Source of the DNA: a virus
Direction: 5' to 3' (one strand)
Virus record (IMG/VR): IMGVR_UViG_3300023284_000200
Span: 1-36,080 of that record
DNA length: 36,080 bases
The translations under genes and the position numbers were made by a program. Positions within the stretch are counted from its first letter, which is position 1. Each line of letters opens with the position of its first letter. The notes beneath the pieces were generated by a model that saw only the letters and a list, made by a program, of their open reading frames with translations, was not told the origin of the DNA and did no database searches. Of the stretch, positions 1 through 36,080 are shown in pieces.

Positions 1-144
1 CAGTTCTTGTCAATCTTTGAATGGCAGGATTGAAGCCACCAGCATGGCCATGTGCAATGATCAGCCGCTGGCTGACAGGATCCCAATGCTGACCAGGTGA
101 AGTCTGCGAAGTGAATGGACCACTGAATCCCTGGAAGATTGAAA
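1..144. repeat. Terminal direct repeat, left copy (circular genome junction)
   Basis: The first 144 bases are identical to the last 144 (35937-36080). The repeat lies inside one continuous reading frame, not at a gene boundary. An overlap of this size inside a gene is what an assembler leaves when it opens a circular or circularly permuted molecule. A true short terminal repeat is less likely, because it would normally sit outside an open frame. The unit length is 35,936 bp. Confidence 0.95.
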
Positions 145-3097
145 CGGTACTGGCCACGTTTGACCTGAACCACTCATCTTCTGGCGCACCAAAGCTGATC
201 TTCACTGTATAGATTTCCTTCCTTGCGCGATCAGCGCCCATACAATGATTGATCGAAAAGTTTGCTGATCCAAAGTTTGCTGGCGTTCCACCAAGAAGTG
301 GAATGTATTTGGTATTCCCGGCAGCATCAGTGTACACGATAATGTCAAGGTCTTCAAAGTCTGGTGCCGTCCAGGGTGGAACGCCCGATGCCACGGCGTC
401 TGGATCTGGACAGAATATGCACAGCCCGTCCCTGGCACCCTGGCTGACGCCTGCAAAGTCCACCGTGCACCGTGGTTGCTCGCTCGCTGAAGTCACCTTC
501 ACTTCAAGCGTCCACAAATTATCATCCATTGTCAGGATCAGATCATCACCAAATGCCTTGGTGCTGGTCAAGATGTTCGATCCATCAAATGCTTCCTGCC
601 TGACAGTTCCCTGCCAAAGGCCACTGAAGCGCAGTGTGGCGCTGCCTACTGGGAAGGTGAACCGTAAGGTGGCCAAGGTGCCGATGTACGTACCTCCGGC
701 TGATACGGTATCACCAAGGGCCACTTCCCACTGTGGTCCTTCAAAGGTGTCATCTTTACGCGTGGCCAGGAAGTATTCATTGATGACGCCACTGCCACTT
801 CCTGGAACGCCACCAGAACCACTGCCCAGGCCAACACGCTTTTCCAGTACAGCTGTGGTGTTGTTCCATGGAGCACATTCCAGCAAGTTGGTGACCTGGC
901 AGATGCCAGCAACCTTGCGCCTGGTTGCCAGCTGCACGATGGCACCAGCAAAACTTCCACCACTATTCCTGGCATCCTGAACCTGCAGCTGCGAATTGAC
1001 CATCCACATCTGGTGCCGGACAAATCCGAAGCCCACCATCAAAGCATCACAGCCGATGTTCCGCATGACGTTCAGGTGCCGCACTAAGTCACTCTTGATC
1101 ACCTGGCCGCTGAATTGGCGCACGCCATCGGTGCGCACGCTCGCGCTGCCTTTGAAGTATCCAGCATCATCCAATGGCGTGACGTTCGCCATCATCTCTG
1201 ATCCCATGATGTCAACAACTGCACCGCTGCGTGGCTGCCACATCACAATGCGATTGTAAGCAGTGTCACGCGCTATGGTGTCGTAACATTCAGCAACATC
1301 AATGAACCCGCTGCCAGCTGCACCGCTTCCAAGTGCACCAGATCCACTTCCCAATCCAGGACATACACCAGCAGTGATGGTGTAAAAACTGGCAGGCACA
1401 TCTTCATTGGTGCGCAGTGCCAGGATTTCACTTGCTGTGAGCGTTGTCCAGTACAACCAAGTATTTGCAGCCCGTCCTTCCCAATACGCCACGTGCGCAC
1501 TTGCAAACCAACTCGCACCGACCAGGCCAACGCCACCAACAGATTTTCTGGTTCCACTAAGCGCTGCAGTAGCAACCAGAATACCATCTTCATACAGAAA
1601 TGTGTCTGTGGCTTCCGATGTGTCGTAAACTCCCACGTGGTCATACCACCTATCGTTCACAATCGTGGCAGAGTTTATGGCGTCAGCTGTAGCATCAGCA
1701 GTGTTGCATGGCAAGAATCCGAATTGATCAGTGGACCTTGCCCCCAAATAAAACACACCTAAATTGTTTGTGGTGGCCCTCCAGCCCATGCAATCCCTTC
1801 CTGTACCGTCCAGTCCATCCACCCATTGCTTTAAACGCACAGCAAAGTCACCACTGCCTGTGGGGAACGCTGCCTGTGGTATGGACACATACCTTTGATC
1901 AGCCAGAAGGAATTCATACGCATCCTGGATTGGACCTGTGACCTGGTCGCCTGCAACCCATGCTGCGTTGTCGGTCGCAACGGTGCCATCATTGTTGTAC
2001 TGGGTGCGGTCGTTGACAGTGCCACCAGTGGGGTCTTCCAGGTAATCAAGCACCACGTGCAGCGTAGTCCTGTAGGTATTGTACTGGCCGAATTCTTCAT
2101 CCACACCAGGAATGGTGGCAGTGGCATCGCCAGCATAGATGACAACGTGAGTGGTGATGCCTGCCATCAGGTCAACTTCACCAGTGTACTTAAAGCGCAT
2201 ATATCCATCCACGCTTCCGCTTCCAACGGTGATGGACAGGATGTCCAGTGGAAGACGCGTGGTACCATCTGACTTGGTCATCACCAGGTCAGCGCCACCC
2301 GCTTGAACGACAGCTTCAAGGCCAGTCACGTCAAGGAAGTGAATCGTGCCTGTATATTCATGTATGTCATCACCAGGATCACCGCTTCCTGGTACAAAGG
2401 CAGTTCCATCAATAGCACAGCACCACTGGGTGCTTCTGGTCGATGGATCAAAACCTGTGAATGCAATGGGTGCATTTGGCACATCACCAGATCCATCATC
2501 ACTGTCAAGGCTGAAGTATTTGAAGTCAACGGTGCCTGTGCCGTTAAACCTTCCAAAGCCCACGCGTCCAGTCGAGTGATCCACATCTGTTTCTTCAACA
2601 TCCCAGGTACCTGGTTCTGCTACGCCAACAGCCCACACCTTCATTTTAAGCGCTGTGCCTATGAACTGCAGGCGCACAAAATACCAGGTGTTTGCCGATG
2701 TCGATACAGCCGCAGCTGATCCTACAAAGCTGAACACGTTGGCCGTGTACTTGAACAGTCCAACGTTCCCGGCACCCATGTCAATGTATGCGGCATATCC
2801 ATTCTTGCTACCTGACGCGCCGCTGCTTCTGCACCACAACCTGAAAATTCCATCAATGGCTGATGACTGCCTGAAGACGCATAACACCTGGCCATCAGCA
2901 ATATCACCTGGCGTATCCCACTGGGCAAGGTTTGAACCATTTGTCCCTGATGGGTAGCGAACCAACGTCCCTGCAAAGTCTGCTGCATCAACTGTCTCCT
3001 CTGGCGCAGGCGTCATGGTGGTATCCCACTTGTCAGTCCAGTCAAGCATGAACTGATCATGGTTGTACCCATGGAACGCTGTTTCAAATGTCGGCAT
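1..3097 (-). CDS. Large tail/appendage protein with DUF2341-like and LamG-like lectin domains (N-terminal part; runs off the left edge)
   Basis: Reading the minus strand from the ATG at 3097, I found no stop down to base 1. Through the terminal repeat the frame continues at 35936 and stops at 35407, giving 1208 aa. An in-frame stop at 3107-3109 limits the start. Residues about 255-340 resemble DUF2341 modules (ends VVIYAGDATATIPG), and about 350-540 resemble a LamG/concanavalin-A jelly roll (DPTGGTVNDRTQYNNDGT, then YVSIPQAAFPTGSGDFAV). Residues about 605-895 are paralogous to the whole upstream 306-aa protein. Gly-Ser linkers (GLGSGSG, PGSGSG) separate modules. Its place after the hub genes and before the lysis genes suggests a receptor-binding or glycan-binding tip protein; that role is inferred. 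Confidence 0.85.
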   Translation of the reverse strand, partial: MPTFETAFHGYNHDQFMLDWTDKWDTTMTPAPEETVDAADFAGTLVRYPSGTNGSNLAQWDTPGDIADGQVLCVFRQSSAIDGIFRLWCRSSGASGSKNGYAAYIDMGAGNVGLFKYTANVFSFVGSAAAVSTSANTWYFVRLQFIGTALKMKVWAVGVAEPGTWDVEETDVDHSTGRVGFGRFNGTGTVDFKYFSLDSDDGSGDVPNAPIAFTGFDPSTRSTQWCCAIDGTAFVPGSGDPGDDIHEYTGTIHFLDVTGLEAVVQAGGADLVMTKSDGTTRLPLDILSITVGSGSVDGYMRFKYTGEVDLMAGITTHVVIYAGDATATIPGVDEEFGQYNTYRTTLHVVLDYLEDPTGGTVNDRTQYNNDGTVATDNAAWVAGDQVTGPIQDAYEFLLADQRYVSIPQAAFPTGSGDFAVRLKQWVDGLDGTGRDCMGWRATTNNLGVFYLGARSTDQFGFLPCNTADATADAINSATIVNDRWYDHVGVYDTSEATDTFLYEDGILVATAALSGTRKSVGGVGLVGASWFASAHVAYWEGRAANTWLYWTTLTASEILALRTNEDVPASFYTITAGVCPGLGSGSGALGSGAAGSGFIDVAECYDTIARDTAYNRIVMWQPRSGAVVDIMGSEMMANVTPLDDAGYFKGSASVRTDGVRQFSGQVIKSDLVRHLNVMRNIGCDALMVGFGFVRHQMWMVNSQLQVQDARNSGGSFAGAIVQLATRRKVAGICQVTNLLECAPWNNTTAVLEKRVGLGSGSGGVPGSGSGVINEYFLATRKDDTFEGPQWEVALGDTVSAGGTYIGTLATLRFTFPVGSATLRFSGLWQGTVRQEAFDGSNILTSTKAFGDDLILTMDDNLWTLEVKVTSASEQPRCTVDFAGVSQGARDGLCIFCPDPDAVASGVPPWTAPDFEDLDIIVYTDAAGNTKYIPLLGGTPANFGSANFSINHCMGADRARKEIYTVKISFGAPEDEWFRSNVASTVSIFQGFSGPFTSQTSPGQHWDPVSQRLIIAHGHAGGFNPAIQRLTRT

Positions 3098-3197: not shown

Positions 3198-3216
3198 CTT
3201 GCCTTCATTTCTTAGG
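3108..3216. repeat. Diverged copy of the intergenic structured element
   Basis: The stretch begins with GTTTTTTAGG, ends with CCTTCATTTCTTAGG and contains CACCTGGTCA. These are the same boundary and core words, in the same order, as the 80-bp repeats at 10632-10711 and 23841-23920. It is longer (about 109 bp) and less conserved. Like the others it fills the gap between two minus-strand structural genes, overlapping the stop codon of the upstream gene. Confidence 0.5.
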
Positions 3217-10711: not shown

Positions 10712-11467
10712 TTGGGTCCTGTGGTGGTGTATGCTCTGCAGCTGCTGGAACTCGTAATTGCCCACTGCCTTCTTGGTTCTGAAGGTCAGCCGGTCAGCTG
10801 TCACTTCCTGTTCCTCTATTCCAATCAATGCCCTGAAGTGCCAGTTCAGATTGGCAATCACGATGCGTGCACATACGTCGCTGATGTCACCAGGCAGGAT
10901 GTCAACAACGGTGTCATCATCTAGCAGCGCAAGATCACTGGTTGACATTACGCTGTTCCACGTTTCACCACTTGCTGGCTGGTCCTGATCATACCTTCTG
11001 AAGCCAGCAAAATACCGGCTGTCCGTTGGAAACTCTGACAGGTCACCATCGAAGTTGATCACCGCATATTCTGACCGTTCATCCACGTGGAGTGGGATTT
11101 CATCGAACAGCAGCACGTCACCATCAACGTCCACAATCTGCACCACTGGATAGTACCTGAAATATGCACGGTGCCTGTTGGATTGATCACTTCGCGTATA
11201 TTCAGACGCAAACTTGAAATCATTCTGTGCAACCGTACAACGCCAGCGTTGAGTGTGCAGCCGCACAATCAGCTTGCGATTCAGAAACGCTTCAATCTTT
11301 TGCGTGGCGCTGTCGATGAAGCGCAGGCCTGCCTGGCGTATCTCATCGCCCTCACCGCTGCCATCAGTTGCACGCAATGCAGTTTCAATCACCGTGCCCA
11401 ACTTGTTCATGGACTGATCAGCAACCTGGGAAGGCGTGACCAGGTCAGTGTATTTTGCTATGATCAT
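10703..11467 (-). CDS. Head-tail connector protein (gp6-like adaptor)
   Basis: The 254-aa protein begins MIIAKYTDLVTPSQVAD, typical of phage head-tail adaptors that start with helices packing on the portal. It then has IEAFLNRKLI, a motif common in HK97 gp6-like connectors (residues about 58-67). It follows the capsid genes and precedes the tail completion genes. Its ATG overlaps the stop of the glycosyltransferase-fusion gene (ATGA). The last codons lie within the 80-bp repeat. Confidence 0.75.
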   Translation of the reverse strand: MIIAKYTDLVTPSQVADQSMNKLGTVIETALRATDGSGEGDEIRQAGLRFIDSATQKIEAFLNRKLIVRLHTQRWRCTVAQNDFKFASEYTRSDQSNRHRAYFRYYPVVQIVDVDGDVLLFDEIPLHVDERSEYAVINFDGDLSEFPTDSRYFAGFRRYDQDQPASGETWNSVMSTSDLALLDDDTVVDILPGDISDVCARIVIANLNWHFRALIGIEEQEVTADRLTFRTKKAVGNYEFQQLQSIHHHRTQPY

Positions 11468-13035
11468 TGCGCCGTTTTCCTCCTAACATCCAACGGATAA
11501 ATATCTTCTGTGTCCTCCTGTGGATTCCCAAGGTTTTCCGAACGCCAGGCGTCCTGCAGTTCCTTGACGCGCATTTCAGTCTTCAACTTTCCACGCTGCT
11601 GGTCAATGACCTGGCCATCTTCACTGATGTCATAGTATCCACCACCATTGTGGACCATGAGGAATTCAGGCATGGCAGATTCATCAAGCTTTTCAATCTG
11701 CACTGGCTGTTCAGCTGTGCCAGGAAACTTGACGTATTCATCACCAGTGGCAATGCGTGCCTTTTGCCCTTTGATCAGCTGATCAGAGTGCAATTCATCG
11801 GTCCAAAATAACCTGTTTGGCCTGGCGTCGATCCCCTTAGCTATCCTTCTTCCACGTGGCGAGAATCCACGATTGAAATTGCGCAGACGTACCAGCGCGA
11901 TCAATGGAATCTGTTCTTGTTGTGAGTGATCCATTTTTGTTTTCCTCTGCCTTCTGGCATAGTTTCTTCTTGTTAAACTAACTGGTGCGCGTGTCTTGAA
12001 CATCTCCGCAGCTTCCACAATGGCCTTGGCAGCACGCGCACTGCATTCACCATCAGTATACTTGAAAACCTGATGCACAGCGCCAATGCGTTGCACTTTC
12101 ATTTCATCATCTTCTGAAAAGGCCAGTTCCACCGCTTCTATCATGTGTTCCGGCTGATCGACATTACACCCCACGTTAGCAGCTGACCAGAACCGAAGCC
12201 CATGGTCAACCTTGCGCCTGTAAAGTGGCATGTTCATCACGATGACTGGCCTGCCCCAACCGCCCCTTCCCGCAGATGCGAATTCGTAGAGCGTGGACAT
12301 ATGATCCATGATGTACACGTCAGCCATTGCCATCACGTCTTCAAACTTGTCAATTACTTCAATGCCACGCTTTCTGTATTCATGCGTGATCTGACCCAGC
12401 ATCCGTGGATGGCCGTGGCCATACAGCTTGAAGTCTTTGCCATTGCGCCCGGCCAGTTCATCCAATGCTGGGATCATGTGCCAGAAAGCGCTGCGTGTTT
12501 CCGGCACCACCTTGCAATCCCAGTGGGTTGAAAATACAACAACAGGCACATCATTCTCTGGCTGTGGCAATGAGCCATCATGCCATGGGTCCAGCTTTGG
12601 ACACCCCACAACCCTGATCAGCTTATCATTCCCATAGGCCTGGCGATCACGCATGGCTGGATGGTCACCAGGGTGAAGAAACATGAAAACGTTTTTGTGG
12701 CCCGAGTATCCCGCATAAGATGAATGTATTGACCTGAAGGACTGACCACCACCGTGCTGCGTGAACACGCACTTCCTGCCAGCTTGGTGTGCTGCTTTTA
12801 AATCGCCAGAAGCAGCTGCCACAAGAAGGCTGGCTTGCCTTGTTCGAAGCTGCGGTATGATAGCACTCCTGTTGGGTCCGTAAGCCTGCGCAGGAATTCC
12901 ACGCATTGCGGCGTGTTTTATTAAGGGCTGCCGGACGTAAAAGATGCCCTGGTATGCTGGTGGCAATGCCAGGTACATTGGGGCAAGGTGATCAAAGAAG
13001 TGCCTTTCATGGGTCATGAAGTCAACTTGTGCCAT
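11464..13035 (-). CDS. TagB/TagF-like GT-B glycerophospho-/glycosyltransferase fused to an unknown C-terminal domain
   Basis: Residues about 1-350 resemble CDP-glycerol glycerophosphotransferases. FTQHGGGQSF (91-100), FKLYGHGHPRM (202-212), and VIDKFEDVMAMADVYI followed by DHMSTLYEFASAG and GRPVIVMN (228-268) correspond to the conserved C-terminal GT-B motifs of TagB/TagF enzymes. Residues 368-523 form an unrelated domain beginning MDHSQQEQ, preceded by the A-rich run AAAACAAAA. That ATG (11934) could therefore be an internal start giving a separate 156-aa protein. The gene sits between the major capsid and the head-tail connector. Its activity may modify virion proteins or host polymers (inference). 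Confidence 0.75.
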   Translation of the reverse strand: MAQVDFMTHERHFFDHLAPMYLALPPAYQGIFYVRQPLIKHAAMRGIPAQAYGPNRSAIIPQLRTRQASLLVAAASGDLKAAHQAGRKCVFTQHGGGQSFRSIHSSYAGYSGHKNVFMFLHPGDHPAMRDRQAYGNDKLIRVVGCPKLDPWHDGSLPQPENDVPVVVFSTHWDCKVVPETRSAFWHMIPALDELAGRNGKDFKLYGHGHPRMLGQITHEYRKRGIEVIDKFEDVMAMADVYIMDHMSTLYEFASAGRGGWGRPVIVMNMPLYRRKVDHGLRFWSAANVGCNVDQPEHMIEAVELAFSEDDEMKVQRIGAVHQVFKYTDGECSARAAKAIVEAAEMFKTRAPVSLTRRNYARRQRKTKMDHSQQEQIPLIALVRLRNFNRGFSPRGRRIAKGIDARPNRLFWTDELHSDQLIKGQKARIATGDEYVKFPGTAEQPVQIEKLDESAMPEFLMVHNGGGYYDISEDGQVIDQQRGKLKTEMRVKELQDAWRSENLGNPQEDTEDIYPLDVRRKTAQ

Positions 13036-15860: not shown

Positions 15861-16690
15861 TCGAATTCACCAGGCATCTGTGTGCATCTACAGTTGATAA
15901 CATTGCCAGCGCTGCCGGACGGATCACCTGGCCATCGCAGTGATTCACCAGTCACCAGGAAGGTGTCACTCATGTCAACGAATTGGCCATCAGCTTCCAC
16001 GTGATCACCAGTCACTTCTTCCCGGACATCACCATCACGCCTGGACAGCCATCCCTTCTGCTTTATGCCAGCATCCTGGAAGGCAAGTTCCTGGCCGGAC
16101 TCGAATACTGGCGTGGCAGTTGTTTGCGCAATCGTCTTTACCCTGTTCTTGGCAATACCATATGTATTCCCCAGCCTTTCTTCAAGGCCAGACAATGGGT
16201 CACCACTTTCCTGCCATGCCAGCACGTCATCTGCGATCTTGCTCAACATCGTGTCATTGATGCCCCTGGCCTTCCCCAGGACTTCCAGAGCAACTGCCTT
16301 GGCACGTGTATCGCCTGGTGGAAAGGGAAGCTCAACACCAACTCTCTGTGCACCTGTGCGGTATCCCTGGACGATGCTCTGCGCTGTCAGTGGCCCATAC
16401 AGCTTGTCAGTCCTGTCGTACCAGGCGTTAAGATCGAACAATTTCTGCGCAATCTGGAAGGGTTCTGCCTTATCACTGAACAACTCACGCGCACGTTTTA
16501 GCACTTCTGCCTTCTGCTCTTTGAACAGCTTTAGTGTGACCAGCTGGTAAGACTTCTCACCAATGAGCTTGATGATGTTCGTAGCGACCCAGTGTGCTGC
16601 CAGAATGACTTCACTGTTGGCGTGCCCCTTGGCATAGTAGCAGGTTTCAATCAGGTGGTGGGCAAAACCCATGGCTTGCTTGTTGGTCAT
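15857..16690 (-). CDS. MuF-like head morphogenesis (minor head) protein
   Basis: The 277-aa protein is helical, ending in the family C-terminal signature: KGWLSRRDGDVREEVTGDH followed by ESLRWPGDP and INCRCTQMP. This is the hallmark of SPP1 gp7/Mu gpF-like minor head proteins, which bind portal and DNA. The ATG at 16690 overlaps the glycosyltransferase stop (ATGA); a longer frame from 16732 lies inside that gene. Normally this gene follows the portal directly; here about 3.5 kb of carbohydrate-modifying genes lies between them. Confidence 0.9.
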   Translation of the reverse strand: MTNKQAMGFAHHLIETCYYAKGHANSEVILAAHWVATNIIKLIGEKSYQLVTLKLFKEQKAEVLKRARELFSDKAEPFQIAQKLFDLNAWYDRTDKLYGPLTAQSIVQGYRTGAQRVGVELPFPPGDTRAKAVALEVLGKARGINDTMLSKIADDVLAWQESGDPLSGLEERLGNTYGIAKNRVKTIAQTTATPVFESGQELAFQDAGIKQKGWLSRRDGDVREEVTGDHVEADGQFVDMSDTFLVTGESLRWPGDPSGSAGNVINCRCTQMPGEFE

Positions 16691-17547
16691 GTCTGTCTTT
16701 TCCTCCAACGGTCCACGCGTGTGATTCCCCACATCGCCCGGTGCATTTGTTCATAATGGTAGTCACGCTTCCTGAAGGCTTTGTATGCGCCTGGCCTCTT
16801 TTTATTGTGCGTGATCCAGAAGGATGGCACAAACGCAACACGCATCTTCCCAGCATTCACAACTGAAATAAGCGGCGCATGCATGATAAGTTTGGATCGG
16901 CGCAGCCTGTGGCTTTCCTGGATCCGGTCGATCATGACCTGGTCACCGTTCGCAGCTTGAAGGCGCATAAAAAAATCAGCATGTTCACCACCAATCTTCA
17001 GGCGTTCATCCCACATCATAACATCAAACAACCTGCGCTTTGCCACCCAAAAGTTGCTGACCACGTCGCACAAGAACCACTGCAGGCCATCTTCTTCATG
17101 ATGCACCCTGATTGGCCGGTCAGCAATCACCTTGTGATCCTCCAGGCGCACATCTGCATAGTACTTGGTCCATCCAACATGGGTGCCACGTGGATGCCTA
17201 CACTTGCAACCTACCAGCACCAGGTCATCGTGGTCTTCAAGCAGCTGGACCATGCGCATGATGTCGGTATGTTCATCAAAGATGTAGTCATCATCAACCT
17301 GGACTATATAGGGTTCAGTGGTTTTGCGCACCAGGTGATTCCTTCCGGCACTACACCCCACGTCGAATGGCAGCCTGAAGCTTTTGCTCATGCCTCTAAG
17401 CTGCAGCGCCACTTGTGAATCATCAGCCACATAGATGTTGGCAGCAGCGCCATACATCTGCCTTATGCTTCTGATGGTCTGCTGCGCAATCTGCTCACGC
17501 ATGAAGACCTTGATGTTGAACGCAATTTGGCTTATGTCATCCACCAC
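16687..17547 (-). CDS. GT2-type glycosyltransferase (GT-A fold), paralogue 2
   Basis: About 286 aa. NIYVADDSQ (nucleotide-binding first Asp pair), then CSAGRNHLVRK, and IVQVDDDYIFD carrying the DXD metal-binding motif, are GT-A signatures. A later GEHADFFMRL motif resembles the acceptor-side EH-x-x-FF element seen in beta-1,4-GalNAc-transferase-like enzymes. It is paralogous end to end with the 298-aa enzyme at 18448. There is no ATG before residue 16: after an in-frame TGA at 17551-17553, starts are TTG 17550, GTG 17547 or GTG 17544. It overlaps the 37-aa membrane protein gene. Confidence 0.8.
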   Translation of the reverse strand: MVDDISQIAFNIKVFMREQIAQQTIRSIRQMYGAAANIYVADDSQVALQLRGMSKSFRLPFDVGCSAGRNHLVRKTTEPYIVQVDDDYIFDEHTDIMRMVQLLEDHDDLVLVGCKCRHPRGTHVGWTKYYADVRLEDHKVIADRPIRVHHEEDGLQWFLCDVVSNFWVAKRRLFDVMMWDERLKIGGEHADFFMRLQAANGDQVMIDRIQESHRLRRSKLIMHAPLISVVNAGKMRVAFVPSFWITHNKKRPGAYKAFRKRDYHYEQMHRAMWGITRVDRWRKRQT

Positions 17548-17645
17548 CAATCACCACGGACGTAAGTTTGTATGTAGTAAAGCATTGCGATACCACCAAG
17601 CAGAGCGCCAATAATTATGGCCGCCCACATCCAGAACATGTTCAT
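17532..17645 (-). CDS. Micro membrane protein (37 aa)
   Basis: Translating the minus strand from ATG at 17645 gives a 37-aa peptide with one TM helix (WAAIIIGALLGGIAMLYY) and a C-terminus ending in three Trp. It overlaps the glycosyltransferase gene. It starts just behind a duplicated block (17641-17674, nearly identical to 17831-17864). A 19-codon frame beginning GTG at 17701 encodes a copy of the sulfotransferase C-terminus (LKKNQRWKKK), and its TGA overlaps this ATG. It may anchor the modifying enzymes or act as a small membrane effector (inference). Confidence 0.6.
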   Translation of the reverse strand: MNMFWMWAAIIIGALLGGIAMLYYIQTYVRGDWWWMT

Positions 17646-17703
17646 TTTTTCTTCCAACGTTGGTTCTTTTTCAGCCGAACCTCCAGCACGAATATGCCCA
17701 CAA

Positions 17704-17835
17704 TTAATCAGTTTTAACTAGACGGATAGCTTCAAACACTAGAACAAAAACAGCTGTGCCCAGTGCGATCAATCCAAGCGCCAAAACAATTACGCCTGCT
17801 ATTATGGCAAGTTTTTCAATGTCCAATCGTTTCAT
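17704..17835 (-). CDS. Micro membrane protein (43 aa)
   Basis: ATG at 17835 overlaps the sulfotransferase stop (ATGA). The peptide MKRLDIEKLAIIAG continues into a single long hydrophobic helix (IVLALGLIALGTAVFVLVF) and a short charged tail. Size and overlap suggest a real coupled gene. There is no lipobox and no family is recognised. Possible roles are a membrane anchor for neighbouring transferases or a small holin-like protein. Confidence 0.65.
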   Translation of the reverse strand: MKRLDIEKLAIIAGVIVLALGLIALGTAVFVLVFEAIRLVKTD

Positions 17836-18458
17836 TTTTTATTCCTACGTTGGTTCTTTTTTAGCCCAACCTGCAAGCGTTGAACATCAGTAGGTATTTT
17901 GCAGAAGTCCAGAAGTCTGCGCTGGCCAGCAGCACTGTTGAATACTTCCATTTTGAACACAGCCACCTGGCCAGGATACGCACCAATAAGTGGTGGTATC
18001 AATTCGTCATAATAATAGTGCCAGTATTTGATCAGGGCCTGGTGCCTGTCTTTACATCCACGAAAGTTGGGAAAGGCTTGATACCAGTGTGAACGGCCAG
18101 GCGTGCCGCCATCCTTCTGGCGTTGCCAGTTGTTTCGGCTGCCAGCCTTCTGTTTCCAGCTGGCCAGATGTCCAGCCAGGTCACGCTTCAAGACCACCAC
18201 CTGCGCACCATAATCAAGCCAGGGTTCTGCCACAGATCCCCACTGAAGCGCCACGTCACCAAAGATGTGACCAGGATGTGCCTTTGAAAGGTGGATCATC
18301 TGTTCCATCCATCCATCCATTTTGCCCCAGTGCAGCTTGTGAGTAAACCGTTCATGGCTGATTCGTGCACCATGCTGGTGGTTCAGCAAGTGTGCCAACG
18401 TTGAAGTACCACACCTGCCAGTGCCACAACCCATGATCCACTGCATTTCAGCTGGCAT
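17832..18458 (-). CDS. PAPS-dependent sulfotransferase-like protein
   Basis: The 208-aa protein has a 5'-phosphosulfate-binding P-loop near the N-terminus (GCGTGRCGTSTLAHLL, about 10-25) and a probable 3'-phosphate-binding segment (VVVLKRDLAGHLASW, about 87-101, with Arg92 and Ser100). This layout is that of sulfotransferases moving sulfate from PAPS to sugars or small molecules. It lies in a run of glycosyltransferases, overlapping one by 11 bases, so a glycan is the likely acceptor. The C-terminus is very basic (LKKNQRRNKK). Confidence 0.8.
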   Translation of the reverse strand: MPAEMQWIMGCGTGRCGTSTLAHLLNHQHGARISHERFTHKLHWGKMDGWMEQMIHLSKAHPGHIFGDVALQWGSVAEPWLDYGAQVVVLKRDLAGHLASWKQKAGSRNNWQRQKDGGTPGRSHWYQAFPNFRGCKDRHQALIKYWHYYYDELIPPLIGAYPGQVAVFKMEVFNSAAGQRRLLDFCKIPTDVQRLQVGLKKNQRRNKK

Positions 18459-19344
18459 AGATAGCTTTATTCTTTACATTTGAATTCCAGTTTGCCACGT
18501 CTTTGAAGTGCCACATGGCCAGCATCTTGCGCCTGTACTTGCTGCCACGCTTGCGCTGCTTTTTGTACTGGACCGGCCTACTGGCTGTGTCGATGAAGTA
18601 GCACGCAGGCACGAATCCGACACCCGCCATGCCTTGAAACAAGGTCAGTGTGGTGGCCAGTGGTGACATCATTTCTGGCACCGAATCCTGCATCACGTTG
18701 CTGAATCTTCGCCTGATGCGCCTGTGACCATTGGCAAACGCCAGGCGCAGGAAGAAATCCATGTGTTCGCCACAGGTCTTGAAGCGATAATCAAACCCCA
18801 CGTTGCGAACAATTTCACGTCTGCCCAAGAACATCATGGGCACCATGTCCACCAACATCCACGTATGATCATCCACCATGCCAGCGTGACGCACTGGACG
18901 GTCCACATATAACACATCTTTTGTGATCCTGAAGTCACCTTCAGCATTGGACCACCTGTTCCGTCCCTGGTCCATCTTCCTACAGCCCACAACGGCCAGG
19001 CCAGGTTCTGCCTGCAACAGATTCAACATCAGGCGCAAGTCGAATGCTGACGTTACCTTGTTGTCATCATCCATCATGACAATGAAATCAGTCATCGCAT
19101 TTTGCGCCAGCCAGTTGCGCTTTGCAGCCACTCCAATGTCATGTTCCAGGTGGTAGACCTGGACCTGCACTGGGTCCTTACAATCTGTTGCCATTACAGT
19201 TTGCTGCTTCGAATCATCAGCCACCAGAATCTGTGCGCCTGGGTATTTATCATGGATCTTGTCCACTGTGTCAACGCATTCCTCTGGCCGTTCGTGTGTA
19301 CCGATGCAGAAGGTGATCAGGTATGAGAATTCCTTTTCCATCAT
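18448..19344 (-). CDS. GT2-type glycosyltransferase (GT-A fold), paralogue 1
   Basis: The 298-aa protein starts at ATG 19344, overlapping the preceding GT stop (ATGA); the longer frame to 19410 lies inside that gene. It begins with a beta strand (FSYLITFCIGTHERP), then ILVADDSKQ, GVAAKRNWLA and IVMMDDDNKV (DXD). A CGEHMDFFLRL element sits in the acceptor half. The paralogue at 16687 shares all these blocks in order, so the two arose by duplication. The likely substrate is an NDP-sugar; acceptor unknown. Confidence 0.85.
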   Translation of the reverse strand: MMEKEFSYLITFCIGTHERPEECVDTVDKIHDKYPGAQILVADDSKQQTVMATDCKDPVQVQVYHLEHDIGVAAKRNWLAQNAMTDFIVMMDDDNKVTSAFDLRLMLNLLQAEPGLAVVGCRKMDQGRNRWSNAEGDFRITKDVLYVDRPVRHAGMVDDHTWMLVDMVPMMFLGRREIVRNVGFDYRFKTCGEHMDFFLRLAFANGHRRIRRRFSNVMQDSVPEMMSPLATTLTLFQGMAGVGFVPACYFIDTASRPVQYKKQRKRGSKYRRKMLAMWHFKDVANWNSNVKNKAIYAS

Positions 19345-20132
19345 GATGTACCTCGCTGAATCACAGGCCCAAGGTGTGATGGCCAGTTTACATCTGTAAA
19401 CCAATAACACACCTGGTAGGCTTCCAGGTCAGTCCATTGGCTGTGCTTCAATCGCCCGTTTCGTGCTTTGTCGTAAGACCAGATGTTTTGCTTGGTCTTA
19501 ATATCCACCAGGCAGAGCATACACAATGGATCATAATTGGCTTCAAGCACCGTGACCCTTGGCCTGTACATCCTCAGTCTGTTGTCAATGGTGCGTTCCA
19601 TCCTTTGCTGCTGCTGCGGCCTGTATGGTGCCCAGTGCATGTAATCCAGTACGCTGCTCGAATACATGCGGCCTGGTCCGTACCCGAACGGCACGCCAGG
19701 TTTGACCTTCCCGCACCTTCCTGTGGCCAAGTCATAGAACACAGCTTCATTGATGCCAACTACTTCAGCCCCGGTCTTGATTAGTGCAACCGCTGACTCT
19801 AGATATTGCGAACTGATCAGGTTATCACTTCCAAGTTGCATGAAGCACACCTGGCCAGGATCAAGATGTGCGCAAGCCTTCTTTATGGCTTGCCACCCTG
19901 TATTCCACTTTATGCCCAGCCTGGCATTTGAACACGTCACAATTCCCGCCCCTTCCTTTGCTGCCTGTGTCCAATCATATGGCATCGGATCTTCTGGCGA
20001 GTGAATAAAGAAAGGCCAGAGTCTAATTCCCTGGCCTTCCAATTCCGTTGCCTGATGGCGCAAGTGCTGCACCATGATGTCAACCACACCTGGACGCTTC
20101 CAGGTTGGGATATGTATTGCTATTGTAAACAT
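19341..20132 (-). CDS. Glycosyltransferase family 2-like protein
   Basis: The 263-aa protein from ATG 20132 opens MFTIAIHIPTWKRPGVVD, the usual first strand and loop of GT2 enzymes. CFMQLGSDNLISSQYLE contains the metal-binding SD-N variant of DXD. The following VGINEAVFYD and a Tyr/Gly-rich loop (VPFGYGPGRMYSS) resemble acceptor-site elements. It lies 31 bp after the portal stop and is coupled to the next glycosyltransferase. An upstream in-frame ATG at 20186 would overlap the portal and is less likely. Confidence 0.75.
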   Translation of the reverse strand: MFTIAIHIPTWKRPGVVDIMVQHLRHQATELEGQGIRLWPFFIHSPEDPMPYDWTQAAKEGAGIVTCSNARLGIKWNTGWQAIKKACAHLDPGQVCFMQLGSDNLISSQYLESAVALIKTGAEVVGINEAVFYDLATGRCGKVKPGVPFGYGPGRMYSSSVLDYMHWAPYRPQQQQRMERTIDNRLRMYRPRVTVLEANYDPLCMLCLVDIKTKQNIWSYDKARNGRLKHSQWTDLEAYQVCYWFTDVNWPSHLGPVIQRGTS

Positions 20133-20163
20133 AACTAACTGGGTTTTAACTGTGATGCCAGCT

Positions 20164-21552
20164 TTAGGCTGGCGTGGTGTGGCCATTATTCCTGGCCGAT
20201 GATTTCAAAATGGCTTGGAAGTCCTCGAGCAGCGATGCAGCTGCAGCAGCATCTTCATCACTGTCAAGTGGTACGCTTAGGCCTGCCTGTTCAAGGGGAA
20301 CGGTGCCCACCTTGGCCAGCAGCTGCGCAGCAGTGCCACCAACTGGTTCAAGCTTCATTGATTCTCTGGCTTCATCTGGCGTCATAATTATACCAGCCAC
20401 AAGTGTGACCAGACGAGCAGCCTTTTTATCCAGGTCTTCACGCAGCAATTTGATGTCAGCTTCATCATAGACCAGTTTGGCATCAGGTGTGTCAAAGCGT
20501 TCCATGTACCAGGCGTTGATCTGGTCCAACATCCAATCCAGAAGTGGCAGTGTGGCCAGCTGGATTAGCGCACGGACAGCTTCACTAAAGTTTGAATACG
20601 TCTTATTCGCGTTGTCACCCAGCAGCGCAGGATCAACGCCGATGCCCACAGCTATCATGCGCATCAGCTGGATCATGGTTTCCTGCATGCCTGCGTCTGT
20701 TGGTGACATGCCTGATTCCTGGAACTTCAGGCCATCTTCCAAAAGCATCGGCATGCTGCTGGTACTGTCCCTGGAATAGGTGGCCTGAAGTTCTTCCTTC
20801 ATCCTGTTGTATGGACCATCATCCAGCTGGTGTGGCGAAACGAACCAACCCGGTATGCGTCCTTTGTGCTGGCTGACCGATCCCATCCAATCAAGCTGAT
20901 TGTCAAACAGATCAAGCGTCTGAAGCAGTGGAAGAAGAAGTGGCAGGCCACGGTCATCGTTAAGTGGATCATACTGCTTCAGGAAACATACTTCTTCAGC
21001 TGGCACCTGGATTGGCCTGTTGAATTTGTCAACTCCCTTATATGCGACCACTTCGCCAGTATCCCTGTTGTGGACCAGCTGAATGATCCTGTCTGGCCGG
21101 ATCAGCTGAATACTTGTTGGCCGGAAGGTCCCGAACAAGCCCAAGTTCCACATAATCATTTCACCACCACCAAACAGGTTCCAGACTGCTTGCTTGAAAA
21201 AGTCAGATGTGCCCTGCATAGAGTTGGGCTTTTTGATCAGTTTAAGCAGTGGGTGATCAGGAACATCCTCTGGTTTGCCATCGGCTCCTGGCTGCTGAAC
21301 CTTCAGATTAACAACGATTGCACCCATGGTATTAGCAATCAGGCTGATGGCTCTGAAGCTGTAAGGATTGCGCACAGCCTTGCGCATTAGTATTGAATAG
21401 GTGGGTTTTGACCAGTTGGCAGTAAGGCCCACAAAATACGTGGCCACTGCCTGGCCGCCTGTAAATATGATGCCTTTGACCAGGCTGGCCAGCGCCTGGC
21501 CGATTTTACGCGAATAAGCCACCACTGCCTTGGTGTATCTCGTTGCCTTCAT
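20164..21552 (-). CDS. Portal protein, HK97 type
   Basis: The 462-aa protein matches HK97-type portals: an N-terminal helix block, YSFRAISLIANTMGAIVV, HPLLKLIKKPNSMQ, GEMIMWN, a wing/stem region around ERFDTPDAK, and GIGVDPALLGDNANKTYSNFSEA-type sequence (split by position about 310-335) that is diagnostic of the family. It forms the dodecameric DNA channel at one capsid vertex. AAGGAAGGATCAAC precedes the ATG. The gene overlaps the methyltransferase by 47 bases. Confidence 0.93.
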   Translation of the reverse strand: MKATRYTKAVVAYSRKIGQALASLVKGIIFTGGQAVATYFVGLTANWSKPTYSILMRKAVRNPYSFRAISLIANTMGAIVVNLKVQQPGADGKPEDVPDHPLLKLIKKPNSMQGTSDFFKQAVWNLFGGGEMIMWNLGLFGTFRPTSIQLIRPDRIIQLVHNRDTGEVVAYKGVDKFNRPIQVPAEEVCFLKQYDPLNDDRGLPLLLPLLQTLDLFDNQLDWMGSVSQHKGRIPGWFVSPHQLDDGPYNRMKEELQATYSRDSTSSMPMLLEDGLKFQESGMSPTDAGMQETMIQLMRMIAVGIGVDPALLGDNANKTYSNFSEAVRALIQLATLPLLDWMLDQINAWYMERFDTPDAKLVYDEADIKLLREDLDKKAARLVTLVAGIIMTPDEARESMKLEPVGGTAAQLLAKVGTVPLEQAGLSVPLDSDEDAAAAASLLEDFQAILKSSARNNGHTTPA

Positions 21553-22132
21553 GTTGATCCTTCCTTGTTGCGCTGAATAGGTGCCACCTCCAGATTGGAC
21601 GCCATGTTGACCTGGTGAAGTCCACGTATGGCCCGTATTGGTGCATGACTGAATCCCTGGTGGTGAAGTGCCTCACATGCGCAGGATCATCAAATGTTGG
21701 AACGCTGAAGATTAGCTGCGCACCTTCTGGTATCAGCTGAAATATACGCAGATCATCCTGGATGTGCTCTAAGACCTCCAAACAAACGAAGATGGCGCCT
21801 GGTGGCGTGGTGTCACCGTTGACCACTTTGCGCAGGTCCCTTTGTTCAAATGTGTATAGGTGATGACCCAGCAGTTTTTTCTTTGCCATGTGGATGGCCA
21901 CTTCGCTGAAATCATAGCCCACATAAGCGGCTGGTGGGTTCTTCGTTGCTAGGCATTCAGCCAGGTGGCCAGCACCACAGCCCAGGTCAACAATCAACCC
22001 CGGATTATTCCCACACATCTTGGCCGTGGCCAGCCAAAGCCTCTTCCTGGGTCCAAATTGGTTCCAGCTTTTCTGGCCTTGCCCACCAGACCAGATCCTG
22101 TCATAGTATGCAGCGTCCTGTTCCTTCCCCAT
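21506..22132 (-). CDS. Class I SAM-dependent methyltransferase
   Basis: The 208-aa protein has motif I LIVDLGCGAGHLAECL (about 46-61), an acidic loop-2 residue in VGYDFSEVAIHMAKK (Asp74) and post-motif CLEVLEHIQDD. This is the small-molecule/sugar methyltransferase pattern (UbiE/Methyltransf_11-like), not that of a DNA methyltransferase (no DPPY or PC motif). It heads the cluster with portal, glycosyltransferases and sulfotransferase, so an O-methyl cap on a glycan is a reasonable inference. Its C-terminal 15 codons overlap the portal start. Confidence 0.85.
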   Translation of the reverse strand: MGKEQDAAYYDRIWSGGQGQKSWNQFGPRKRLWLATAKMCGNNPGLIVDLGCGAGHLAECLATKNPPAAYVGYDFSEVAIHMAKKKLLGHHLYTFEQRDLRKVVNGDTTPPGAIFVCLEVLEHIQDDLRIFQLIPEGAQLIFSVPTFDDPAHVRHFTTRDSVMHQYGPYVDFTRSTWRPIWRWHLFSATRKDQHEGNEIHQGSGGLFA

Positions 22133-22894: not shown

Positions 22895-23085
22895 TTCAAT
22901 ACGGTTGGTCCCACTTCTGCGGATTGATTGTTTTGCGCTGCACGATATACAGCCTGCCTGCAGGCGTGGCTGCACCACTTGCGTGGCCTGCGCCTTTTGA
23001 TGTAATAGAATGTTGCATTGCAATGCTGGCAATACCCAAGCCAGCGCTGCCTTGACTTGATCCACTTGTGTGGCTTAACAAGCAT
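22891..23085 (-). CDS. Small zinc-finger protein (64 aa)
   Basis: The sequence has GYCQHCNATFYYI and KWCSHACRQAVYR, a C-x2-C ... C-x3-C zinc-binding arrangement with many Arg/Lys around it. This suggests nucleic-acid binding. Its start lies within the end of the 31-aa membrane peptide gene and its stop overlaps the next ATG. The type is common in phages but the target is unknown. Confidence 0.7.
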   Translation of the reverse strand: MLVKPHKWIKSRQRWLGYCQHCNATFYYIKRRRPRKWCSHACRQAVYRAAQNNQSAEVGPTVLK

Positions 23086-23170
23086 AGATTAACCTCCAAA
23101 AGTTGATTCCGATTAGAAACATAGCGAGCAGCAAAAGGATCACTCCTATAATGGTCCAGGAATACTTCAT
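23075..23170 (-). CDS. Micro membrane protein (31 aa)
   Basis: ATG 23170 overlaps the preceding TGA (ATGA), and the TAA at 23075 overlaps the start of the zinc-finger gene. The peptide MKYSWTIIGVILLLLAMFLI is almost entirely one TM helix, followed by a short tail. Overlaps at both ends support translation. The role is unknown; it could be a membrane effector, anti-holin-like peptide or superinfection-exclusion factor. Confidence 0.65.
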   Translation of the reverse strand: MKYSWTIIGVILLLLAMFLIGINFWRLIYAC

Positions 23171-23289
23171 GGTGTTGAATGGTTTGTGCCAGGCCCTGGT
23201 GGACCTGGCGTTGTTTTTCGAGATGCGCCACTATGGACCAAGATCCAGGCAGCGAACATTCCCACAAGTGGTCCGATGATCCATATCAT
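23167..23289 (-). CDS. Micro membrane protein (40 aa)
   Basis: ATG 23289 overlaps the RHH gene stop. The N-terminal half is a TM helix (MIWIIGPLVGMFAAWILVHS), and the C-terminal half is Pro/Gly-rich (TTPGPPGPG). It is coupled to the next micro membrane gene. There is no Cys for a lipobox, so it is not an Rz1-like lipoprotein. Confidence 0.65.
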   Translation of the reverse strand: MIWIIGPLVGMFAAWILVHSGASRKTTPGPPGPGTNHSTP

Positions 23290-23697: not shown

Positions 23698-23835
23698 CTA
23701 TGATTTGAAGTAAACAACGATTGCTGTGACGATTGCCAACAGCGTGATTGGAACCAGGATGAATGCCCACATAAGGCGGTCATGATGCCTGGGCTTTAGG
23801 CTGTCGATCCATTTCTGAAATCGGTCCTTCTTCAT
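23698..23835 (-). CDS. Micro membrane protein (45 aa)
   Basis: ATG at 23835 opens MKKDRFQKWIDSLKPRHHDR, a basic head, followed by one TM helix (MWAFILVPITLLAIVTAIV). The TAG is at 23698. The ATG overlaps the TGA of the PAPKKL-type frame from the 80-bp repeat, another ATGA junction. Positive-inside topology would leave the C-terminus outside. Function unknown. Confidence 0.65.
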   Translation of the reverse strand: MKKDRFQKWIDSLKPRHHDRLMWAFILVPITLLAIVTAIVVYFKS

Positions 23836-23840
23836 TCTGG

Positions 23841-23920
23841 CCTTAGTTTTTTAGGTGCCGGCAGCTCGTAAAAGGCCACCTGGTCACCGCGAAAAGCGGC
23901 CGTGGCCTTAAAAAGTTAGG
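23841..23920. repeat. 80-bp structured intergenic element, copy 3
   Basis: It matches 10632-10711 at 69 of 80 positions. It starts CCTTAGTTTTTTAGG and ends CCTTAAAAAGTTAGG; the ends pair at 12 of 15 positions, enclosing a CCGC-TTTTC-GCGG hairpin. On the minus strand its frame continues the 190-aa gene after TAA for 27 codons (ending LPAPKKLRPE) and stops in an ATGA with the next gene. Confidence 0.8.
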
Positions 23921-24488
23921 CCGCGACTTCTTCAGGCACTTCAACGCCCATCAGTTCCAGCTGTGTGCTGTTCGTTCCTGACAGGTAACCAACCACCAGG
24001 TCAGCCAGGTGCGTCAGATCGCCGTATTCATGCAACTCAAGGCGCATGCCTTCTTCCTTGTGATCATGCCACACAAAGCCCGGACTATCCAGGTTGACAA
24101 TCTGGCCAGGTTTGTTCTTCAGCTTCCGATGCGCAAACACCTTGAAGCCGATGTTCTCGCCTTGCCTTTTGACTTGTATGCCAGTCACGATGATGGCCTC
24201 ATTCTTCCTGCTCGTCATCTCACGGTGCTTGACCACAAACGGGATCAGCGCATTCATTGCTTCACGGATCGTTGGAATAGGTGGCCTGGTGACCACGTCA
24301 GGGTTCGTACTCCACGGTTCAGGAACTTGCATCCCCACACGTGGCGCTTGGATCGTGGCACTGCACGTGTTGCCAGTCCACATCCACTTGGTAAGCAGCG
24401 CAACATCAAGGCGCACACCATAGTGCTCTGATGCTACTGCTGCTCGTTTGATGGTTTTGTCTTGTTGTTTACCATTCGATGTTGCCAT
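23916..24488 (-). CDS. Hypothetical protein next to terminase (190 aa)
   Basis: No family is recognised. The sequence is soluble, with a Pro-rich middle (PEPWSTNPDVVTRPPIP), a central Lys/Arg-rich region, and an acidic end (GVEVPEEVAA). The gene follows terL by 12 bases. After its TAA the same frame is open for 27 codons through the 80-bp repeat, so a stop-readthrough form is possible but unproven. It could be a head accessory or DNA-binding protein. Confidence 0.7.
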   Translation of the reverse strand: MATSNGKQQDKTIKRAAVASEHYGVRLDVALLTKWMWTGNTCSATIQAPRVGMQVPEPWSTNPDVVTRPPIPTIREAMNALIPFVVKHREMTSRKNEAIIVTGIQVKRQGENIGFKVFAHRKLKNKPGQIVNLDSPGFVWHDHKEEGMRLELHEYGDLTHLADLVVGYLSGTNSTQLELMGVEVPEEVAA

Positions 24489-25859: not shown

Positions 25860-26229
25860 GCAGCATCTTGCGTGTTAGATCGTATCCTGCCACAGCCTTG
25901 AAGATTTCAGCAAAGGCCAGCATATCTTCAGATGACCAGGTCTTCCTGTTTGTCATGGCGCTGACAGCTTCCAGCATATCCTGGATAGAGCGTTCCAGTT
26001 GGTCTGGCACATCAGCGCCTTCCACCTGGTCAAGTCTATAGGCGACTAATTTCGCCAATTCAGGTTCTGATAGTGAACGCTTTCGCCAGCGTTGGATGGT
26101 TCGTTTGCCCACGCCAAACTTCGTGGCCGACGATTCATCACCATGAAAGGCAGCCCACAGAATGCAGTCTGCCATCATCTCGAGTTTTTTGCTGGCAACA
26201 ACAGCCTGCGCCTGGCCTGGTTTAGCCAT
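25819..26229 (-). CDS. terS: Terminase small subunit
   Basis: ATG 26229 (MAKPGQAQAVV) gives 136 aa; the longer frame to 26268 lies within the preceding membrane gene. A helix-turn-helix (residues about 30-52: FHGDESSATKFGVGKRTIQRW) is followed by helical oligomerisation sequence (DQLERSIQDMLEAVSAM). It should recognise packaging sites and load TerL. The assignment rests on HTH, size and position just before terL. Confidence 0.8.
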   Translation of the reverse strand: MAKPGQAQAVVASKKLEMMADCILWAAFHGDESSATKFGVGKRTIQRWRKRSLSEPELAKLVAYRLDQVEGADVPDQLERSIQDMLEAVSAMTNRKTWSSEDMLAFAEIFKAVAGYDLTRKMLHERFKLLHGTGNS

Positions 26230-26431
26230 GGAACAGGTATCCTGAAACGCTATCAACCAGAAATACAACCATCAGTGCCAGTGACGCCACCCAGGTGATG
26301 CGCATGATGATTGCTTCAACCACCAGGCCACGCTTTATCATGGCATGTGTGAATTCGTGGAAGGCATAAGTTTTCCAGAATGCGAAGCATAGAATGATGC
26401 CATTGGCTAAAGTAAGCAAGAAGTGAATCAT
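26222..26431 (-). CDS. Small membrane protein, first leftward gene (69 aa)
   Basis: The protein starts MIHFLLTLANGIILCFAFW, a TM helix or signal anchor, then a His-containing loop (YAFHEFTHAMIKRG) and a second TM helix (ITWVASLALMVVFLVDSV). The HEFTH string recalls the HEXXH zinc motif but has no second half, so I do not call a protease. It is the first gene behind the divergent control region and overlaps terS by 8 bases. Confidence 0.65.
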   Translation of the reverse strand: MIHFLLTLANGIILCFAFWKTYAFHEFTHAMIKRGLVVEAIIMRITWVASLALMVVFLVDSVSGYLFHG

Positions 26432-33762: not shown

Positions 33763-33866
33763 CGCTGGCCGATTTAGATGTTTGATGTGCTCTATGTATC
33801 GGCCAGCGCCTGATGAACTTAAATAAGAAGGGCCAGACACCCGTGCCGAACACGGATCTGACCCTT
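33763..33866. terminator. Two further hairpins in the convergent gap
   Basis: CGCTGGCCGAT/ATCGGCCAGCG (33763-33773 with 33798-33808, 11 bp) and AAGGGCCAGA/TCTGACCCTT (33828-33837 with 33857-33866, one mismatch or G-U), the latter with an inner CCGTG/CACGG stem. They lie between converging units. The rest of 33604-33970 holds no other feature I can support beyond the 37-aa candidate and the orphan leader at 33868. Confidence 0.6.
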
Positions 33867-33867
33867 T

Positions 33868-33888
33868 AAACCATTCAATCCAACAACC
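33868..33888 (+). promoter_or_regulatory. Orphan CA-rich translation leader
   Basis: AAACCATTCAATCCAACAACC matches the leader before five early genes but is followed by ATG with only four codons (MNES, then stop). It is probably the remnant of a deleted early gene. Confidence 0.5.
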
Positions 33889-34145: not shown

Positions 34146-35033
34146 TCACTTGATGTTTTCTTCTACCCATTGACGTGCAAATGCAGCTGCGCCTGCCAGC
34201 CTGGACTGCTGCGTTTCTTTGCTCAGATCCAAACCGCTTCCAAGGTACCCAGGTGGCGAAAGCACATCAAGCTTGAATTCCTTGAAGAACTTGTTGCCAG
34301 GTTCTCTGGCCAGCTGGTTGCGCCGATCAAATGCCACCAGGTCATTTTGAAAGATTTCATCCAGCATCCAGGTGATGGTGGCTTCAGCAACATCAGCCAA
34401 GTCACGTGGCGATTTTTGCCGAAGCACATGCGTGGTGGGTTCAGTCGTTATGATCACGATGCGTTCCAGCGTTTCACGGTACTGCTTGATGCCCCAGCCC
34501 AGTGGGGTGATGTCACGAACACCACCGTCAACCCATAGGCCACCATCATATTCCAGTGGCTGGAAGATCATAGGCATAGCACTGCTGGCGTACATATCCC
34601 TCCACACATCCTTGCCTTGGTTTGTCTTATAGCTGACACCACCTGTGCGAAGATCCACCCGGCTGGTGTTTAAAGGCATCTTAAATTGCCAGTCACGATC
34701 TATAACAAAACCCTTGATCAACTTCTGCAGTGGCCTTGCATCATACGCTGAAAGGAATGCACGGCGCACACCAGCCTTGTGCAAAAGGAAGTTGAACCCC
34801 AGTCTGATTGGCTTGCGTTTCTTATAGACGTGTTTTTGTCTCATGCCAGTCCATAACTGGTCACCTTTTTCATGCTGGCCAGTTGCCACCAGGAATCCAT
34901 TCAACGCACCAACACTGGTGCCAACGACAGCATCAAACTGGATGTGCGGCTGCAATTCGCGGAACACACGCCATTGCCAGATGCCTTTGCTGCCGCCACC
35001 AGACAGGACCAGTAGCGTTTTCACGTCTGCCAT
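34146..35033 (-). CDS. Patatin-like phospholipase
   Basis: The 295-aa protein has all patatin elements: oxyanion loop SGGGSKGIWQ (11-20), nucleophile Ser40 in VVGTSVGALNG, YASSAMPMIFQP (148-159), and catalytic Asp169 in VDGGVRDITP. It should hydrolyse acyl esters of phospholipids. No signal peptide or TM is seen, so it acts from the cytoplasm or needs the holin for access. It sits between a holin-like gene and a small coiled-coil gene at the end of the late operon, where lysis enzymes usually are. Host defence patatins (CapV-like) share the fold, but no CD-NTase is present. Confidence 0.88.
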   Translation of the reverse strand: MADVKTLLVLSGGGSKGIWQWRVFRELQPHIQFDAVVGTSVGALNGFLVATGQHEKGDQLWTGMRQKHVYKKRKPIRLGFNFLLHKAGVRRAFLSAYDARPLQKLIKGFVIDRDWQFKMPLNTSRVDLRTGGVSYKTNQGKDVWRDMYASSAMPMIFQPLEYDGGLWVDGGVRDITPLGWGIKQYRETLERIVIITTEPTTHVLRQKSPRDLADVAEATITWMLDEIFQNDLVAFDRRNQLAREPGNKFFKEFKLDVLSPPGYLGSGLDLSKETQQSRLAGAAAFARQWVEENIK

Positions 35034-35406: not shown

Positions 35407-36080
35407 CTAACTCAATGGCTGTGATAGAAGGTTGATGTTTCCAGAGCCACCCGCCACCCCCAAAAGCCTGGTGAAGTCACCAGATGCCAGTGGCAGCTGC
35501 GCATCTGTTTTGTCAGTGCTGAACCATCCAAGGCCACCCGAGTCTGCTGTATAGATCCTGCGCCTGTTGTCATGTATGATCATGTCATGATCTGTTAGTG
35601 ACAATGGAGCACTACCCAGGTCAATCACTGTGGTGACGCCTGAAAAATCCAATTCAGCACGCTTGATGACATTGCCATCATTAAAATACCACTTTGAATC
35701 CCACTGTGACCACTGAAGTGATCTGGTACCCAGCGCATCAACGGGAAGTCCTGTAGGAATGAAGGCTGGTTCAGACGCCGAAACATACAAGCATGAAGAC
35801 GTGTGAACGGGCTTTGTGCCCTCGCCACTGCTGATGTAAAGGCGCACCCTATCTGGACCGATTGCAAGACCACCAATGATCTTCAACATGATGTCGAATT
35901 CATTATTGCATGTGATCCAGTCCGTGTCAGGGCTTCCAGTTCTTGTCAATCTTTGAATGGCAGGATTGAAGCCACCAGCATGGCCATGTGCAATGATCAG
36001 CCGCTGGCTGACAGGATCCCAATGCTGACCAGGTGAAGTCTGCGAAGTGAATGGACCACTGAATCCCTGGAAGATTGAAA
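35407..36080 (-). CDS. C-terminal part of the large LamG-containing tail protein
   Basis: The frame stops at 35407-35409 (TAG) and is open to the right edge of the window. It is the same frame as the gene starting at 3097, joined through the terminal repeat. This segment encodes beta-rich sequence (VRLYISSGEG, DHDMIIHDNRRRIYTADSGG) that looks like a beta-propeller or beta-helix repeat. A TTG at 35949 should not be taken as a start. Confidence 0.85.
   Translation of the reverse strand, partial: SIFQGFSGPFTSQTSPGQHWDPVSQRLIIAHGHAGGFNPAIQRLTRTGSPDTDWITCNNEFDIMLKIIGGLAIGPDRVRLYISSGEGTKPVHTSSCLYVSASEPAFIPTGLPVDALGTRSLQWSQWDSKWYFNDGNVIKRAELDFSGVTTVIDLGSAPLSLTDHDMIIHDNRRRIYTADSGGLGWFSTDKTDAQLPLASGDFTRLLGVAGGSGNINLLSQPLS
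35937..36080. repeat. Terminal direct repeat, right copy
   Basis: Identical to bases 1-144. See the left copy; it marks the circular joint of the assembly. Confidence 0.95.

Follow-up and report, generated by a model that had tools for sequence, protein, structure and literature searches.

A late-operon patatin-like phospholipase in an uncultivated phage, a possible helper of lysis

Known lysis by double-stranded DNA phages relies on hole-forming proteins, wall-cutting proteins and proteins by which membranes are fused or broken. If a lipid-digesting enzyme truly belonged to a lysis cassette, it would represent a different way through the envelope. This question is raised by an uncultivated phage, of which the 36,080-nt record IMGVR_UViG_3300023284_000200 was analysed over its whole length (hereafter, the window). 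A preliminary description had placed a patatin-like phospholipase gene at the lysis position of this genome and considered the enzyme as a possible lysis effector. The closest published idea is the putative lytic cassette of the Wolbachia phage WO, itself a hypothesis, in which a patatin is accompanied by a holin-like protein (PMC9203015, PMC3173496). In the open-access literature, subscription papers lying outside the search, nothing beyond this proposal was found on a patatin with a spanin or in a lysis cassette, and the proposal is hard to test in an uncultivable endosymbiont.

The exact 144-bp terminal repeat of the record makes it most likely that the genome is circular and complete, at 35,936 bp (~35.9 kb). 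Late genes lie on the minus strand (TerS-like, TerL, portal, Mu F-like, S78 protease, HK97-type capsid, neck, tape measure and fibre), and early-type genes occupy the plus strand from ~26.5 to 33.6 kb, among them one for a DnaD-like helicase loader. The tail-fibre gene (minus strand) spans the ends of the record: its 5′ part, with a Laminin_G_3/concanavalin-like domain, is at 1..3097 and its 3′ part at 35407..36080, running on through the terminal repeat to 3097, so that the ORF read from 3097 over the junction to 35407 comprises 1208 codons without a stop. Long Gly-Ser-rich (GSGSGS) linkers are found in this fibre (3097-1 / 36080-35407) and in that of contig L089 (7352-11824), and the module repeated in the fibres also makes up a 306-aa protein at 3212-4132. 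The head genes are interspersed with a modification block on the minus strand (16687-17550, 17832-18458, 18448-19410, 19341-20186, 21506-22132 and 11464-13035) that contains two family-2 glycosyltransferases, more glycosyltransferase- and sulfotransferase-like ORFs, a methyltransferase and a CDP-glycerol glycerophosphotransferase-like protein. The synteny of the glycosyltransferase/sulfotransferase block is kept in three related phages, and a role in virion or host-surface modification is possible. Relatives of the major capsid protein in bacterial genomes are often alphaproteobacterial, at ~40-50% identity, which is too distant for naming the host.

The ORF at 34146..35033 on the minus strand encodes 295 aa and matches the Pfam family Patatin (PF01734) with an E value of 1.2e-27 and 97.8 bits (cut-off 27.7), over profile positions 1-187 of 191. 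As the preliminary description stated, all catalytic motifs are intact, namely the oxyanion motif GGGSKG (residues 12-17), GTSVG with Ser40, and DGG with Asp169; residues G12-G14, G17, G38, S40, G42 and D169 are invariant in an alignment of 55 sequences. The AlphaFold model has a pLDDT of 93.5 and resembles PlpD, CapE, CapV and potato patatin with Z scores of ~25-28 (~27 to PlpD and CapE). Profile match, catalytic motifs and alpha/beta fold thus all place the product among the patatin-like phospholipases. In base-shuffled sequences the longest stop-free run averaged 188 codons with a maximum of 310, and the length of the ORF alone could therefore arise by chance; what marks it as a real gene is its match to the family, together with motif conservation and the confident model. 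Its GC content and codon usage agree with those of the phage's own genes, no transmembrane (TM) segment is predicted, and single-sequence patterns found no close relatives in viral and bacterial contigs. The product is probably an active, soluble patatin-type phospholipase or acyl hydrolase with a Ser40-Asp169 dyad. It shares fold (Z 25.5-27.6 over 240-273 residues) and catalytic motifs with PlpD, CapE and CapV, but is only 15-24% identical to them, and has neither a secretion/autotransporter part nor a matched cyclase partner. Single-domain size, 23-31% identity and a C-terminal LG..DF motif connect it with other environmental and megaphage patatins (LR756508, Rhodothermus phage RM378), the genomic contexts of which vary; the patatin of the marine Mar_Mega_1 is grouped with them from its published description (PMC9723777).

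On the minus strand, the fibre gene (ending at 35407) is followed by a 116-aa ORF (35387-35037), the patatin gene (35033-34146), a 57-aa ORF (34144-33971) and a hairpin. The stop codon TGA of the 116-aa ORF is separated by three bases from the ATG of patatin (TGATCTATG). The 57-aa ORF, directly 3′ of patatin, encodes a coiled coil and has no family match in Pfam or PHROGs. The hairpin, with a T-rich tail (33827..33869, minus strand), was found by folding (-26.7 kcal/mol, z -4.8 for 33815-33880) and is absent from the list of a simple terminator scan; it is likely to be the 3′ end of the late transcript, and the whole run from the fibre gene onwards looks like the end of that transcript. The 116-aa product is composed of a coiled coil and one C-terminal hydrophobic segment and is encoded after the fibre gene, as in XhlA-type haemolysin and holin-associated proteins, but differs from these in giving no significant match to a holin or XhlA family in Pfam or PHROGs; weak matches to coiled-coil and hemolysin families were obtained (phrog_1193, E 0.058). 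The spacing and order thus bear out the earlier statement that patatin comes right after a holin-like gene at the end of the late operon, with "holin-like" being a call on architecture alone.

The earlier failure to recognise an endolysin was reproduced with Pfam (~50 window ORFs) and PHROGs (30 ORFs), which detected no peptidoglycan hydrolase, although very divergent types would escape them; a motif scan gave no convincing candidate either. That profiles find none is weak evidence, as is shown by phage Enc34, whose endolysin cannot be recognised by sequence as similar to other types (PMC8943055). A 190-aa late ORF (23916-24488) was weighed as a possible divergent endolysin, and its model is uninformative (pLDDT 41.7). 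An alternative holin candidate is a 69-aa ORF (26222..26431, minus strand) that lies upstream of the TerS-like gene and has two predicted TM segments, and an alternative small lysis protein could be encoded by a 45-aa late-strand ORF with a single TM segment (23698..23835, minus strand). These belong to a set of very small late-strand ORFs with one or two TM segments (17532-17657, 17704-17835, 23075-23170, 23167-23289, 23698-23835 and 26222-26431, all minus), each a candidate for a holin or a single-gene lysis protein.

Whether patatin stands in for the missing endolysin can be judged from related phages. Searches with the capsid and tail proteins retrieved only three syntenic phages, G001 (36.1 kb), G003 (35.9 kb) and the fragment G004. 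Patatin is absent from all three; since G004 breaks off inside the fibre gene, the evidence at this place comes from G001 and G003 only. In G001 the fibre gene is directly followed by a 117-aa coiled-coil homologue of the 116-aa ORF (29% identity, E 1e-8 and 4e-11), which is the last late gene, the early genes coming next on the other strand. In G003 the fibre gene is followed by an ORF with an N-terminal TM segment and a coiled coil and by a 69-aa two-TM ORF; at the place of window 26222-26431, G003 has an ORF of like type. No Pfam lysin was found among the unassigned ORFs of the relatives at E 0.01. Because these relatives retain the rest of the late operon and lack both patatin and a recognised endolysin, the missing endolysin appears to be a property of the phage group that is unrelated to patatin. 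Patatin itself is an accessory in this group, not essential to its lysis, because all three relatives do without it. Tallied together, the unassigned ORFs of the relatives also gave one match each to the DNA-modification families Mom (9.4e-47) and DpdA (6.1e-9), and the TerL of G004 (L093) shows a likeness of only 26%, along part of the protein.

Patatin genes of other phages were collected by a profile search, which yielded 80 loci, 79 with a callable patatin ORF and 56 non-redundant at 70%. Among the non-redundant loci, 24/52 have a fibre-like gene no more than three ORFs upstream of patatin, and 6/54 have one at such a distance downstream (Fisher P 8e-5, the loci not all being independent); in the window phage, too, patatin is the second gene after the fibre. 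Near phage patatins, small TM genes show no clear enrichment (15/97 near vs 11/82 and 6/91 further off). Hand-added examples aside, the ±2 neighbours of the 56 loci contain one match to a lysin family (M15, in contig L243).

Patatin overlaps or adjoins endolysin-type genes in several genomes. In LR756508 a GH108 ORF (3405-3986) and patatin (3986-4924) overlap by one base. In L243 the order is a coiled-coil and TM ORF, an M15 peptidase, patatin with a 4-bp overlap, and an ORF with an N-terminal TM segment and a coiled coil. In L225 two fibre genes precede patatin, which is overlapped by an Amidase_2-like ORF (a weak match, under the Pfam cut-off), and in L235 an Amidase_3 gene lies 395 bp downstream. 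The patatins of L243 and L225 are 35% identical, whereas the endolysins beside them are of different kinds. A relationship between the 116-aa ORF and a 137-aa ORF of L243 was considered and rejected, since no similarity is detectable and architecture alone is common to the two; an ORF of L216, three genes downstream of patatin and SleB-like by eye, was not counted, as Hydrolase_2 found nothing there. When eight hydrolase families were searched on 48 patatin contigs (the GH108 search missed its controls too and is uninformative), 3/16 peptidoglycan-hydrolase matches lay within 0.5 kb of patatin, compared with 0.18 expected under random placement (P ~0.0006), a cut-off picked after seeing the data and a proximity to which late-gene clustering could contribute. 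Wider cut-offs on the same contigs gave P 0.005 at 1 kb and P 0.03 at 2 kb.

The best-supported reading, which we hold tentatively and at somewhat less than an even chance, is that patatin is a late, membrane-attacking helper of lysis that works alongside a wall enzyme. We infer that it would be expressed late, from the final stretch of the late operon and along with the coiled-coil, membrane-anchored holin-like protein, and that it would attack host membrane phospholipids during lysis. It may help to collapse the inner membrane, or the outer membrane once the wall has failed, a spanin-like contribution, and would act beside a wall-degrading activity and not instead of it, no such enzyme having been recognised in the phage group. 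This role is plausible because of the late operon, the lysis position, and the patatins that overlap or flank endolysin-type genes elsewhere. These same points sustain the suggestion of a lysis effector in the preliminary description; the missing endolysin loses its value as a pointer, since the relatives lack both genes. Most phage patatin loci are without a recognised lysin alongside, which counts against a lysis role, and the comparative evidence still favours one.

A sole lysis effector, replacing the endolysin as proposed for phage WO and perhaps suited to a host with little or no peptidoglycan, would agree with the lack of a recognised endolysin in the scanned ORFs and with the WO precedent of a hypothetical patatin and holin-like cassette without endolysin (PMC9203015, PMC3173496). 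The syntenic relatives, however, keep the remaining late operon with neither gene, and in several other phages patatin accompanies an endolysin. Replacement of the endolysin is thus not supported, and this explanation is very unlikely; patatin is probably an added helper and not a substitute. A virion or adsorption enzyme, packaged with or near the tail tip or fibre and aiding passage of the genome across the host membrane, or a late fibre-linked accessory, is unlikely as well. The bias towards positions behind tail-fibre genes is also compatible with a function in the virion or some other late role, and in some large phages structural genes come after patatin. Lysis genes, too, often come after fibres, so this position cannot separate the two readings; moreover, the patatin loci are not all independent, a holin-like gene lies between fibre and patatin in the window phage, and patatin overlaps endolysin-type genes in three other genomes (LR756508, L243 and L225).

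An accessory enzyme unrelated to lysis, serving counter-defence, superinfection exclusion or host lipid remodelling, is quite unlikely. Its fold is common to the bacterial anti-phage effectors CapV and CapE, and its absence from all relatives is typical for accessory cargo. Most anti-defence genes are early, unlike the late-operon position of patatin. By curated cut-offs the protein is not a CBASS or DS2 effector, scoring far below the thresholds for the CBASS lipase equivalog (38.5 vs 200) and DS2 (21.4 vs 400), and the scanned ORFs gave no match to a nucleotide cyclase or to another partner from a defence system. Megaphage patatins, for example that of Mar_Mega_1, have been reported as auxiliary metabolic or virulence genes (PMC9723777), which speaks for such an accessory role; the patatin-endolysin overlaps call this habit of labelling into question.

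The likeness to the WO cassette, as published, is partial (PMC9203015, PMC3173496). In both phages patatin adjoins a small holin-like gene with one TM segment and a coiled coil beside tail genes. A canonical endolysin is recognised in neither, although in the window phage divergent types can escape Pfam and PHROGs, and the relatives without patatin give the same result. However, the TM segment of the holin-like protein is N-terminal in WO and C-terminal in the window phage, and an ankyrin-repeat protein is a further member of the WO cassette. The WO patatin is present wherever the tail genes are, whereas the window patatin is absent from all three relatives; the pairing of patatin with a TM/coiled-coil gene by the tail module is therefore found here, and conservation of patatin throughout the group is not. 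In a broader and somewhat doubtful view, patatin may be a recurrent, unrecognised part of phage lysis cassettes, a lipid-degrading enzyme whose endolysin partners, though unrelated (GH108, M15, amidase), are interchangeable and which achieves by enzymatic means what spanins or holins do mechanically. Genomes in which patatin overlaps an endolysin-type gene make a lysis role testable as a two-gene experiment.

In L178 (9174-10873) and L184 (8602-10828), contigs of 37 and 210 kb, patatin lies behind an ORF with a signal peptide, a coiled coil and a C-terminal TM segment and behind small TM ORFs; these neighbours gave no NCBIfam match. The clearest case of a patatin among lysis-type genes is at 8640-11510 of L243, a compact locus that would be a good experimental model.
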